64,000 nucleotides of DNA from Pseudomonas fluorescens (GTDB taxonomy: Bacteria > Pseudomonadota > Gammaproteobacteria > Pseudomonadales > Pseudomonadaceae). Position numbers and translations under genes: made by a program. The stretch covers positions 62,001-126,000 of the forward strand of contig NZ_CP015225.1 of the NCBI RefSeq assembly GCF_001623525.1, given 5' to 3'. Shown piece after piece: positions 35,900 to 61,822 of the stretch (its first letter is position 1; each line of letters starts with the position of its first letter). The notes under the pieces were generated by a model. That model searched no databases, had not been told where the DNA came from, and worked only from the letters and a program-made list of their open reading frames with translations.

Positions 35900-35965
35900 T
35901 ACGCGATGCCGAATTCGGGTCGCGGAGACAAAAAAACTTGCTGAATTTTTCAGGAGATTTGAATC
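35900..35965 (+). promoter_or_regulatory. ROSE-type RNA thermometer in the ibpA 5' leader
   Basis: The SD-containing hairpin CTTGCTGAA (35937-35945) / TTCAGGAG (35949-35956) has the ROSE hallmark: UUGCU facing AGGA with a single bulged G (35940), a U-G pair next to it, and a 3-base loop. It masks AGGAG before ATG 35966. A second hairpin, GCGATGCCGAATTCGGGTCGC (35913-35933), precedes it. ROSE thermometers on ibpA-type genes, including in pseudomonads, are established; the folding here is by eye. Confidence 0.85.
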
Positions 35966-36418
35966 ATGAGTACTGCATTTTCGCTGGCCCCTCTGTTCCG
36001 TTCCTCGGTAGGTTTCGACCGTTTCAACGACTTGTTCGAAACCGCCCTGCGCAACGAGCCGGGCAGCAGCTATCCACCCTACAACGTGGAAAAACATGGT
36101 GATGACGAGTACCGCATCGTGGTCGCCGCCGCCGGGTTCCAGGAAGAAGACCTGGACCTGCAAGTGGAAAAAGGTGTGCTGACCATCAGTGGTGGCAAAC
36201 GTGAAGCCAGTAACGACAGCGTCACCTACCTGCACCAGGGCATCGCCCAGCGTGCGTTCAAGCTGTCCTTCCGGTTGGCCGATCATATCGAGATCAAGTC
36301 CGCCGGCCTGCGTAACGGTCTGTTGAGCATCGACCTGTTGCGAGTGGTTCCGGAAGAGGCGAAAGCCAAGCGCATCCCGATCAACGGTGCGCAGCAGCAA
36401 CCCGCGCTGCAAAACTGA
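35966..36418 (+). CDS. ibpA: Small heat-shock protein (Hsp20/IbpA)
   Basis: 150 aa. Alpha-crystallin domain about 40-130: YPPYNVEKHGDDEYRIVVAA, LDLQVEKGVLTISGGK, FKLSFRLADHIEIKSA and LRNGLLSIDL. The N-terminus MSTAFSLAPLFRSSVGFDRF is the IbpA type. ATP-independent holdase that binds unfolding proteins in the cytoplasm. Control is expected at two levels: the sigma-32 promoter and the ROSE hairpin. A strong terminator follows within 20 bases, so the gene stands alone. Confidence 0.95.
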   Translation: MSTAFSLAPLFRSSVGFDRFNDLFETALRNEPGSSYPPYNVEKHGDDEYRIVVAAAGFQEEDLDLQVEKGVLTISGGKREASNDSVTYLHQGIAQRAFKLSFRLADHIEIKSAGLRNGLLSIDLLRVVPEEAKAKRIPINGAQQQPALQN

Positions 36419-59700: not shown

Positions 59701-59776
59701 GGGTGATTAGCTCAGCTGGGAGAGCGTCTGCCTTACAAGCAGAATGTCGGCGGTTCGATCCCGTCATCACCCACCA
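59701..59776 (+). tRNA. tRNA-Val (TAC)
   Basis: 76 nt with encoded CCA. Acceptor GGGTGAT pairs with ATCACCC; the anticodon loop CTTACAA gives TAC; T arm GGCGGTTCGATCCCGTC. Confidence 0.96.
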
Positions 59777-59834
59777 TGTTTTACGAGAGTTTTGCGAAAG
59801 CAAGACGGAAGCTGTCAAAAGCCTCCACCGACGC

Positions 59835-59911
59835 GCAGCGGTAGTTCAGTCGGTTAGAATACCGGCCTGTCACGCCGGGGGTCGCGGGTTCGAGTCCCGT
59901 CCGCTGCGCCA
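59835..59911 (+). tRNA. tRNA-Asp (GTC), copy 1
   Basis: 77 nt with encoded CCA. Acceptor GCAGCGG pairs with CCGCTGC; the anticodon loop CTGTCAC gives GTC; T arm GCGGGTTCGAGTCCCGT. Confidence 0.97.
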
Positions 59912-60001
59912 TATTTTCCGAAGCAGGTTCGCCTGGTTCGAGATCCAAGCTCAAAGGGGTTGGGTCAGACGAGTTAACTGGACGCAAGTCCATAGCGATA
60001 C

Positions 60002-60078
60002 GCAGCGGTAGTTCAGTCGGTTAGAATACCGGCCTGTCACGCCGGGGGTCGCGGGTTCGAGTCCCGTCCGCTGCGCCA
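60002..60078 (+). tRNA. tRNA-Asp (GTC), copy 2
   Basis: Identical to the copy at 59835, 90 bases downstream of it. The flank CGCAGCGGTAGTTCAG.. is shared but the spacers differ. Confidence 0.97.
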
Positions 60079-60215: not shown

Positions 60216-60248
60216 GTGGCGAGGGAGCTTGCTCCCGCTGGGCTGCGA
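60216..60248 (+). repeat. Left part of a REP interrupted by the IS110 element
   Basis: GTGGCGAGGGAGCTTGCTCCC then GCTGGGCTGCGA, where the repeat stops abruptly. Intact copies (e.g. 26591, 50344) continue as GCTGGGCTGCGWAGCAG.CCC; that continuation appears at 61797, just after the IS. Confidence 0.85.
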
Positions 60249-60254
60249 TATAGG

Positions 60255-60480
60255 TAGTCCGTTCCTTGCTCCCCCATACTGATACTCGCTGGAGTCCGGT
60301 TGTTGCGAGGAAGGAACATGCACCTGCGAGCTACGAATAGGGCTGCAACGCATCTCGATGATTACTGCTTCACCTTCGAGCCCAGCAGGTGCGCTTGCGC
60401 CCTCTAACGAACACTCAGGGAAAGCCGGGCACGGCTCTCTATATCGCCTTCGCTGGACGCAAGCATGCATGTTCCTGCAT
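60255..60480 (+). ncRNA. Candidate IS110 bridge RNA
   Basis: Three consecutive structured units in the non-coding left end. (1) 5' stem GTTCCTT/AAGGAAC (60261-60267 with 60311-60317). (2) Loop closed by CACCTGC/GCAGGTG (60321-60327 with 60385-60391), carrying GGGCTGC (60340-60346), identical to the left half of the target, and CTGCTTC (60365-60371), reverse complement of GA-AGCAG across the right half. (3) Loop closed by GCTTGCG/CGCAAGC (60393-60399 with 60458-60464), with inner hairpin AGCCG-GGCA-CGGCT (60423-60436). This loop carries CTCAGGG (60414-60420), identical to the element's right end (61785-61791), and CTATATC (60439-60445), reverse complement of GA-TATAG at its left end. This is the target-loop/donor-loop plan described for IS110 bridge RNAs. 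The ends are approximate. Confidence 0.75.
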
Positions 60481-60507
60481 GTACTTTAGCGTCTGTGGAG
60501 GTGTGCG

Positions 60508-61776
60508 ATGCAAACGCTCTTGTCTCAGAAATTCACTGCTTATATCGGAATTGATTGGGCCGATACCAAACATGACGTCTGTTTGCAGGTTGCTGGGCAA
60601 GCCCAGCGGTGCTTCTCGGTCATCCGACACAACCCCGAAGCTATTGATCAATGGGCTCATGCGCTGTATCAGCGTTATGGCGGTCCTATCGCCATTGCCG
60701 TGGAGTTAGACAAAGGACCGTTGATAGCGGCCCTGCAAAAATATGATTTTTTTTGTTTGTTCCCGATCAACCCCGCCACCTTAGCCAAGCAGCGTAAGGC
60801 CTTCGTTCCCAGCGGTGCGAAGGACGATCCGAGCGATGCCCAGTGGGCACTTGAGCTATTGCTCAAGCATCCCGACAGATTTCCCCAGCAGGAGAAACAA
60901 AGTCCTGCCATACGTTCTCTGGCTAGCTTGACTGAACATCGGAGAACCTTGGTTGATGAGCGGGTAAGAATCAGTAATCGGTTGGTTTGCATGCTCAAGC
61001 AGTACTATCCGTTGGCGCTGGAGTTGTTCCACGATCATGACACACAGGTGTTCTGTGATTTCCTGGAGCGCTGGTCGACGTTGGAAACACTTAAACGTGC
61101 TCGGCCTACAAGCGTTTTGAAGTTTCTTAACGCGCATAATGTTCGCCATGCAGAACTCAATCAGCAGCGTCTGGCCTTGATCCTCAAGGCCACGCCGCTG
61201 ACAGAGGATCCGGGGATTGTTAACCCTTCAGCGCTGTATGTGCGGACCCTGGCATCGCAACTGAGTGGGATGCTGGTGGCGATCAAGCAGTTTGATGCGG
61301 CGATCGAAGAAACGGCCAATACCCTGGCCGATTACAGCCTCTTCAAATCCTTGCCTGGAGCCGGGCAACAGCTTGCACCACGGCTAATGGTAGCTTTTGG
61401 TGAGCAACGTGATCGCTTCAAGGATGCTGGTGCTATGCAGCGATATGCCGGGATCGCTCCGGTTACCGAGCGCAGTGGCAAGAAGAAAATCGTTCGCTGG
61501 CGCTATCAATGTTCAACCTTTTTGCGCCAGACATTTGTCGAGTGGGCTGCCCACAGCATCAATCAATCGGTATGGGCAGGGGCGTACTATCGCCAACAGA
61601 AGGCCAAAGGCTGCTCTCATCAAGCAGCCCTGAGGGCACTGGCTTTTAAATGGATCAGGATCGTTTATCGGTGCTGGAATGCTGGATCCCAGTATGACGA
61701 GAGCGTCTATTTACAAGCCTTGGCCCGCCACGACTCGCCTTTGATAAGAGCACCGGAGGCAACGAAAGCATGTTGA
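60508..61776 (+). CDS. IS110-family transposase (DEDD recombinase)
   Basis: 422 aa. N-terminal RuvC-like domain with D16 (YIGIDWADTKHD), E66 (AIAVELDKG), D107 and D110 (KDDPSDAQWA), the DEDD set. The C-terminal Tnp domain has SLPGAGQQLAPRLMVAFG, LQRYAGIAPVT-like MQRYAGIAPVTERSGKKK with S323 as the likely nucleophile, and WRYQCSTFLRQTF. Works with the element's own structured RNA to recombine without DDE chemistry. GGAGG lies 7 bases before the ATG. Base composition is visibly more AT-rich than neighbours, consistent with transfer. Frame and motifs look intact. Confidence 0.95.
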   Translation: MQTLLSQKFTAYIGIDWADTKHDVCLQVAGQAQRCFSVIRHNPEAIDQWAHALYQRYGGPIAIAVELDKGPLIAALQKYDFFCLFPINPATLAKQRKAFVPSGAKDDPSDAQWALELLLKHPDRFPQQEKQSPAIRSLASLTEHRRTLVDERVRISNRLVCMLKQYYPLALELFHDHDTQVFCDFLERWSTLETLKRARPTSVLKFLNAHNVRHAELNQQRLALILKATPLTEDPGIVNPSALYVRTLASQLSGMLVAIKQFDAAIEETANTLADYSLFKSLPGAGQQLAPRLMVAFGEQRDRFKDAGAMQRYAGIAPVTERSGKKKIVRWRYQCSTFLRQTFVEWAAHSINQSVWAGAYYRQQKAKGCSHQAALRALAFKWIRIVYRCWNAGSQYDESVYLQALARHDSPLIRAPEATKAC

Positions 61777-61796
61777 CGGAAGAGCTCAGGGCGTGA

Positions 61797-61822
61797 AGCA
61801 GCCCTTGGTGTTGGTGGCTTCA
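61797..61822 (+). repeat. Right part of the interrupted REP
   Basis: AGCAGCCCTTGGTGTTGGTGG continues the REP broken at 60248. No inverse REP partner follows, so the original site was probably a single REP. Confidence 0.75.

Follow-up and report, generated by a model that had tools for sequence, protein, structure and literature searches.

Analysis of a 64,000-nucleotide stretch of the Pseudomonas fluorescens genome (the window) identified an IS110-group element with a putative bridge RNA specifying REP, and we are highly confident that this is the best explanation of the locus. The left end displays the anatomy of such an RNA, with stems that covary and guides that track the flanks among relatives; the recombinase has conserved residues, the joined ends form a promoter-like junction and nine on-target copies are present in the genome. 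The features are listed below by window position.

60249..61796, plus strand: IS110-group element, 1548 bp, with boundaries set by comparison with relatives and with a related element for which an exact empty site was found
60216..60248, plus strand: left part of the interrupted REP, with the left target (LT) GGGCTGC at 60240-60246 and the target core GA at 60247-60248
61797..61804, plus strand: right part of the interrupted REP, with the right target (RT) AGCAGCCC
60249..60254, plus strand: right donor (RD) TATAG; TATAGG would also serve as the -10 of a promoter formed on circularisation
61785..61796, plus strand: left donor CTCAGGGCGT and donor core GA, at the right end
60261..60475, plus strand: predicted bridge RNA (about 215 nt), based on covariation; both ends inferred, the start about 7 nt after the -10
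60263..60315, plus strand: 5' stem-loop (60263-60270 with 60308-60315)
60316..60472, plus strand: helix joining the two guide modules (60316-60321 with 60467-60472)
60322..60390, plus strand: target-binding loop (stem 60322-60337 with 60375-60390)
60340..60346, plus strand: left target guide (LTG) GGGCTGC, from guide-flank tracking and word match
60365..60373, plus strand: right target guide (RTG) CTGCT, with core TC and handshake AC
60393..60464, plus strand: donor-binding loop (stems 60393-60402/60455-60464 and 60408-60411/60449-60452; inner hairpin 60424-60435)
60414..60420, plus strand: left donor guide (LDG) CTCAGGG, in columns invariant across 43 aligned left ends
60439..60447, plus strand: right donor guide (RDG) CTATA, with core TC and handshake GC
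60497..60501, plus strand: ribosome-binding-site-like GGAGG upstream of the recombinase start, read from the sequence
60508..61776, plus strand: IS110 recombinase, 422 aa, likely catalytic residues D16, E66, D107, D110 and S323
61773..61778, plus strand: -35-like TTGACG, 18 nt from TATAGG after joining of the right end (RE) and left end (LE)

The boundaries were refined from a related plasmid element with an exact empty site, where the two bases preceding TATAG are the core of the target and the GA preceding RT belongs to the element. Carried over to the window, this places the element at 60249-61796 (1548 bp). As in the IS110 group, a long left end (259 nt) lies upstream of the start codon, the right end extends only 20 nt past the stop codon, and the core is shared, with GA at both junctions in 9 of 9 copies of the element in this genome. 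Three consecutive tRNA genes, two with equal Rfam scores, lie directly left of the element (window 59701-60075). Elsewhere in the window, a ROSE_3 RNA thermometer was matched at 35900-35971 (71.9 bits, Rfam).

The genome is a single contig of 6.9 Mb, in which the DNA search listed 88 matches. Nine were full-length copies (99-100% identity); the remainder were confined to bases 9-49 of the query, its REP flank. Five copies, including that in the window, are identical, three others differ by 15 or 16 bases, and a further copy (L008) resembles these three; the guides are unchanged across the copies. The number of copies, and the identity of five, indicate that the element may be recently active. 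All nine are inserted at the same REP palindrome apex in one orientation, with ...CTGC-GA on the left and GA-AGCAG... on the right; intact REPs, such as L015, read ...GCTGGGCTGCGAAGCAGCCC. An earlier note, made from the sequence alone, had proposed a REP-directed recombinase, and the presence of all nine copies at the REP that the guides would specify supports that reading. The LT is exact in eight of the nine copies. The exception, L005, carries GGACTGC rather than GGGCTGC, a change that the same guide could accommodate through a predicted G:T wobble; an rG:dT pair is reported to be tolerated in the left target of IS621 (PMC11208160). The intact 14-mer GGGCTGCGAAGCAG is present and unoccupied at 79 perfect sites (42 + 37), and a backward-pattern control gave none. 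In 24 loci from the same genus with homology to the right flank (L129-L152), no REP motif was found in the 420 nt before the match, and hence no empty site was found for the window copy.

Re-reading of the sequence reproduced exactly all seven coordinate pairs of the earlier note. The LTG is identical to 60240-60246, directly left of the junction, and the RTG with its core and handshake bases (CTGCTTCAC) is the reverse complement of GTGAAGCAG at 61793-61801. The LDG is identical to 61785-61791 at the right end, and the RDG (CTATATCGC) is the reverse complement of GCGATATAG at 60245-60253. The hairpin described between the donor guides is likewise readable (GCCG at 60424-60427 with CGGC at 60432-60435). 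Each of the four guide words occurs once in the 259-nt left end.

The structure was analysed in an alignment of 43 left ends, three of which are from this genome. The consensus comprises a 5' stem-loop, a joining helix, a target loop and a donor loop, and 94.2% of cells form standard pairs, compared with 26-44% when one side is slid by 1-3 columns. Both-side changes were observed in 29 of 44 pairs. The 5' stem-loop (helices 1-2) has 92.3% and 87.6% of cells paired and both-side changes in 8 of 12 pairs, and the joining helix (helix 3) has 96.3% paired and such changes in 2 of 5 pairs. The earlier note had proposed a three-unit fold closed by two stems, and covariation over the 43 left ends backs this fold. 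Both closing stems covary: the target-loop stem (helix 4; 96.1% paired) has both-side changes in 10 of 15 pairs, and the donor-loop stems (helices 5-6) in 9 of 12. Among five shuffle measures of the stems, four were reached by 0 of 500 shuffles, and the measure of further pair types by 29 of 500. The minimum-free-energy fold of the left end of the window element by itself gave a z of -2.68, with 3 of 200 shuffles equally stable, and the three units were not cleanly visible in that fold. Comparison of the left end with Rfam gave no family at the gathering score, and none up to an E of 1. As a conserved, covarying predicted structure, the left end is a putative non-coding RNA with the anatomy of a bridge RNA.

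A scan of genomes from different species identified 46 loci encoding relatives, with 47-85% identity in the best segment. Protein searches of 369 genomes of the class and 398 of the phylum (E 1e-100) added two relatives, and no relative was found in the viral contigs searched. Parsing was applied to 65 loci, made up of relatives, six of the element's nine own copies, copies from related genomes and five plasmid records. Nine failed and one (L036) was re-added by hand, leaving 57 left ends with 43 distinct target loops. Three left ends (L052, L054 and L078) were set aside. The right ends of L043, L070 and L073 were kept in the guide-flank test where distinct, and were dropped as not credible from the handshake, promoter and core counts. 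In L043, the right end reads CTCAGGGCGTGA followed by TATAGCC, which resembles a circle junction and shows no in-register match to the right guide of that element. A copy in another genome of the genus (G274) has a loop and flanks identical to those of a P. umsongensis record (L072).

In these relatives the guides change with the insertion site. Over 40 distinct loops, the left guide matched the seven bases before the core at a mean of 6.30 of 7 positions, compared with 3.62 when partners were swapped, and 36 of the 40 matched at 6 or 7 positions. Over 37 distinct loops, the right guide matched its flank at a mean of 4.81 of 6 positions compared with 3.36 when swapped; 27 matched at 5 or 6 positions and 31 were in the same register. 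The true value was reached by 0 of 20,000 permutations on the left and 0 of 20,000 on the right, in a test uncorrected for relatedness, so that inherited pairings are counted more than once; swaps between elements with a common target reduce the contrast. The left guides of L063 and L064 match at 3 of 7 positions and those of L067 and L059 at 5 of 7, while the right guides of L052, L070 and L088 match at only 3 of 6. When homologous copies were checked for guides disagreeing with their sites, there were few exceptions (L063, L064 and L067, on the left), and guides and flanks change together.

The nearest sisters, whose recombinases are 73-75% identical to that of the window, form a natural series, with close relatives differing in target guides and site while the donor guides remain constant. 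They retain the donor guides CTCAGGG and CTATATCGC, and carry the target guides GCCTCYC (GCCTTCC in L056) on the left and CCCCT or CCTCC on the right. Their insertion sites read GCCTCYC-GA followed by AGGGG, GGGGG or, in L029, GGTGG. The sisters represent natural retargeting with unchanged donor guides, and such swaps between close sisters would mean that target guides evolve independently of donor guides. The sister target is a dispersed repeat: GCCTCYCGARGGGGC was found 8, 26 and 3 times in three genomes, with none in the control, and was not found in the present genome.

We noted that unoccupied matches to the sister repeat were mostly of a variant not matched by the genome's own guide (G262, G274 and G252). 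All unoccupied matches in G274 (26/26) and G252 (3/3) read GCCTCTC-GA-GGGGGC, with guides there of GCCTCCC/AGGGG, and 7 of 8 in G262 read GCCTCCC-GA-AGGGGC, with an own guide of GCCTCTC. This skew, a pattern limited to the variants searched, possibly reflects site saturation. In two sister copies at different places in G262 (L029 and L031), the recombinase gene contains a single in-frame TGA, located in the same stretch in both; this suggests either spread in trans or locus duplication. In the Enterobacterales loci L088 and L093-L117, the target is a dispersed palindrome, GTCnGCT..GAGCGA-NN-AGCGGACATT, and several further members of the clade target variants of this pattern.

In IS621, two bases per loop are described as pairing with the other partner after strand exchange (PMC11208158). 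The earlier note had likened the two bases beyond the core in each right guide to this handshake, and these bases do covary with the swapped partner. The target base preceding the core (LT-1) fitted the donor-loop handshake base at 33 of 44 sites (permuted mean 20.0; reached by 0 of 20,000 permutations), and the donor base before the core (LD-1) fitted the target-loop handshake base at 32 of 40 (25.8; 4 of 20,000). The association was weaker one position further out, for LT-2 (16 of 44; permuted mean 11.1; 127 of 20,000) and LD-2 (20 of 40; 13.8; 8 of 20,000). The handshake of the window element is complete (2+2), AC fitting the donor GT and GC the target GC. Wild-type IS621 is reported to pair three of the four handshake bases (U167 faces tG6), the fourth being made by an engineered post-HSB RNA (PMC11208158). 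With a complete natural handshake and nine copies, the element may be a useful test system.

Joining of RE and LE would rebuild a putative promoter, TTGACG-18-TATAGG. Of 32 distinct RE/LE pairs, 23 have TTGAC at a spacing of 16-19 nt and 9 do not.

The recombinase matched PF01548 (82.5 bits; cut-off 29), PF02371 (58.5; cut-off 21.3) and NCBIfam NF033542 (159 bits; cut-off 140). It has the DEDD RuvC-like domain and the C-terminal domain with a conserved serine that characterise the IS110 group, and D16, E66, D107, D110 and S323 are invariant in 21 of 21 aligned sequences, the window recombinase included. The only PDB sequence match at E ≤0.001 was IS621 (1.6e-4), for which the catalytic set D11, E60, D102, D105 and S241 is reported (PMC11208158). 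S323 aligned with S241 within the significant stretch; D16, D107 and D110 aligned with D11, D102 and D105 in a stretch not significant by itself, and E66, which was not aligned with E60, was assigned from its motif position. The best structural matches of an AlphaFold2 model (mean pLDDT 85.3) were IS621 and ISCro4, with a predicted fold similarity of E ~1e-12 and a query TM-score of 0.44-0.47; identity to IS621 in the structural match was 17-19%.

The mechanism that we propose takes the circle, transcript, ribonucleoprotein, tetramer and strand exchange from IS621 by analogy. The element would excise as a circle, and the RE-LE joining would rebuild a sigma-70 promoter from which the bridge RNA of about 215 nt would be transcribed out of the left end. 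This RNA would bind a DEDD/serine recombinase tetramer. The REP would be read by the target loop, through the LTG on the bottom strand and the RTG on the top strand; the donor loop would read the junction between the element's own RE and LE. The top strands would be cut directly after the core dinucleotide and then exchanged, with the handshake bases, AC for the target loop and GC for the donor loop, pairing with the incoming partner strand and thereby aiding the exchange. The circle would thus enter REP palindromes at GGGCTGC-GA^AGCAG in one orientation.

Several other explanations were considered. The recombinase alone might recognise the REP, with the structured left end acting only as a regulatory 5' UTR of its mRNA. 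The left end does lie upstream of the start codon, and ISPpu9 of P. putida is reported to have a long structured 5' UTR and two sRNAs affecting recombinase expression (PMC8450116). A regulatory leader does not, however, predict that loop letters change with both flanks, as they do across the 40 and 37 distinct loops, nor that handshake bases covary with the other partner, and we regard this explanation as very unlikely. That the guide matches are chance or captured REP fragments without function is more improbable still. REPs are abundant in the genome, and in 20,000 dinucleotide shuffles of the left end the two 7-nt words alone arose fairly often (LTG in 1105, LDG in 359), with the RTG and RDG words in 53 and 27; however, at least two of the four words occurred together in only 30 of the 20,000, and jointly the four are beyond chance. 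Sisters with different targets, moreover, differ in sequence at these two positions of the loop, and capture of REP fragments leaves unexplained why the second loop matches the element's own end.

An IS1111-type arrangement, in which a seekRNA lies downstream of the recombinase and the guide order is reversed, has a similarly negligible probability. The DEDD recombinase superfamily is common to both types, but here the structured 259-nt region is upstream, and a right end only 20 nt past the stop codon leaves little room for a structured guide-bearing RNA. The bottom-strand guide also precedes the top-strand guide, as described for the IS110 type (PMC11187229). With this right end the element was not assigned to the IS1111 group, and with its GA core it is not an IS621 in the narrow sense, which has a CT core. 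An IS110-group element with a putative bridge RNA specifying REP is therefore preferred, and the relatives with altered guides at matching altered sites make it a convincing new example of predicted RNA-guided recombination.

The core dinucleotide was examined across the clade. IS621 is reported to prefer a CT core strongly in both target and donor, with AT, GT and TT usable if the two cores and the guides are altered in concert (PMC11208160, PMC11208158). Five of the 57 distinct sites (L059, L063, L064, L067 and L088) failed the guide-match filter, leaving 52, several of which are copies of one element and so are not independent. The left and right cores agreed at 20 of the 52 sites, and the right core was GA at 45. 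For the guide core UC, which reads GA, the left core was GA at 14 of 18 sites, and for AG, which reads CT, the left core was CT and the right core GT at 3 of 3. For UU, which reads AA, the left core took nine forms in 31 sites (purine-purine in 20 of 31), a tolerance possibly due to G:U wobble.

The pre-insertion reading of the core draws on L158, the one exact empty counterpart (of L095), and on two looser homologous sites (L119 and L176). The empty plasmid site L158 reads AAGAGCGA-AG-AGGGGC and the filled L095 reads AAGAGCGA-AG|element...GA|AGGGGC, indicating that the left core there is the target's (AG) and the right core the donor's (GA). The looser homologous sites have the non-GA cores AG (L119) and AT (L176); they are unequal to the left cores of their filled counterparts (TA in L106 and AG in L068, respectively), and so show only that such cores occur. 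Searches with the flanks of L104 in E. coli genomes and of L093 in plasmids found no locus that spanned both flanks. In the window element both cores are GA, which has no bearing on a relaxed core. We give an even chance to the reading that a shared core is not required in this recombinase clade, the dinucleotide of the target staying on the left and that of the donor, mostly GA, on the right. If the target's core does stay on the left, the left edge of each element records the pre-insertion core. Such a relaxed core, if true, would loosen the core rule reported for IS621 and, if confirmed, could widen the sites usable by such recombinases.

REP-targeting IS110s were in print by 2006 (PMC1525189). 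In that report all copies of ISPpu9 and ISPpu10 (P. putida) and ISPa11 (P. aeruginosa) lie in REP (7/7, 7/7 and 6/6), as here; their insertion, described at REP bases 9/10 and 6/7, sets them apart from the present element by description, and ISPa11 is treated elsewhere as an IS1111-type element (PMC11187229). The ISEc21 seekRNA resembles the present RNA in being of the IS110 type and upstream, and ISEc21 and ISMch6 provide a described natural redirection between relatives; by description ISEc21 differs in targeting IS3-family transposase genes, not REP (PMC11187229). The same genome also holds a second IS110 element in six copies (L170-L175; 1177 bp; core CT; 320-aa open frame), all six found in a REP-like repeat, GCGAGCAAGCTCG-CT-CCCACA. 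Its left end (L171) contains AAGCTCG, equal to its LT, and GTGGGAGAT, the reverse complement of its right junction, whereas its donor guides could not be read clearly. It is alike in targeting a REP-like repeat and differs in its length of 1177 bp, its CT core and its repeat class, and the two elements seem to partition the genome's repeat classes between them.

In a literature search from 2024 on, mostly among papers available without subscription, only two Nature papers were found to tie bridge RNA to REP. These describe IS621 of E. coli (PMC11208160, PMC11208158), which shares with the present element the IS110 group, a long left end with a 5' stem-loop and target and donor loops, the LTG/RTG and LDG/RDG logic, an RE-LE promoter, handshake guides, REP targets and a DEDD and serine recombinase. 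The window recombinase (422 aa) is distant from that of IS621 (E 1.6e-4; 17-19% identity), the core is GA and not CT, and the handshake is complete (2+2), compared with three of four in wild-type IS621 (PMC11208158). The locus thus offers independent support for the bridge-RNA model, including the handshake, in a recombinase only distantly related to that of IS621. The kind of system, IS621-type bridge recombination, is known; the additions are this member and the core behaviour of its clade.
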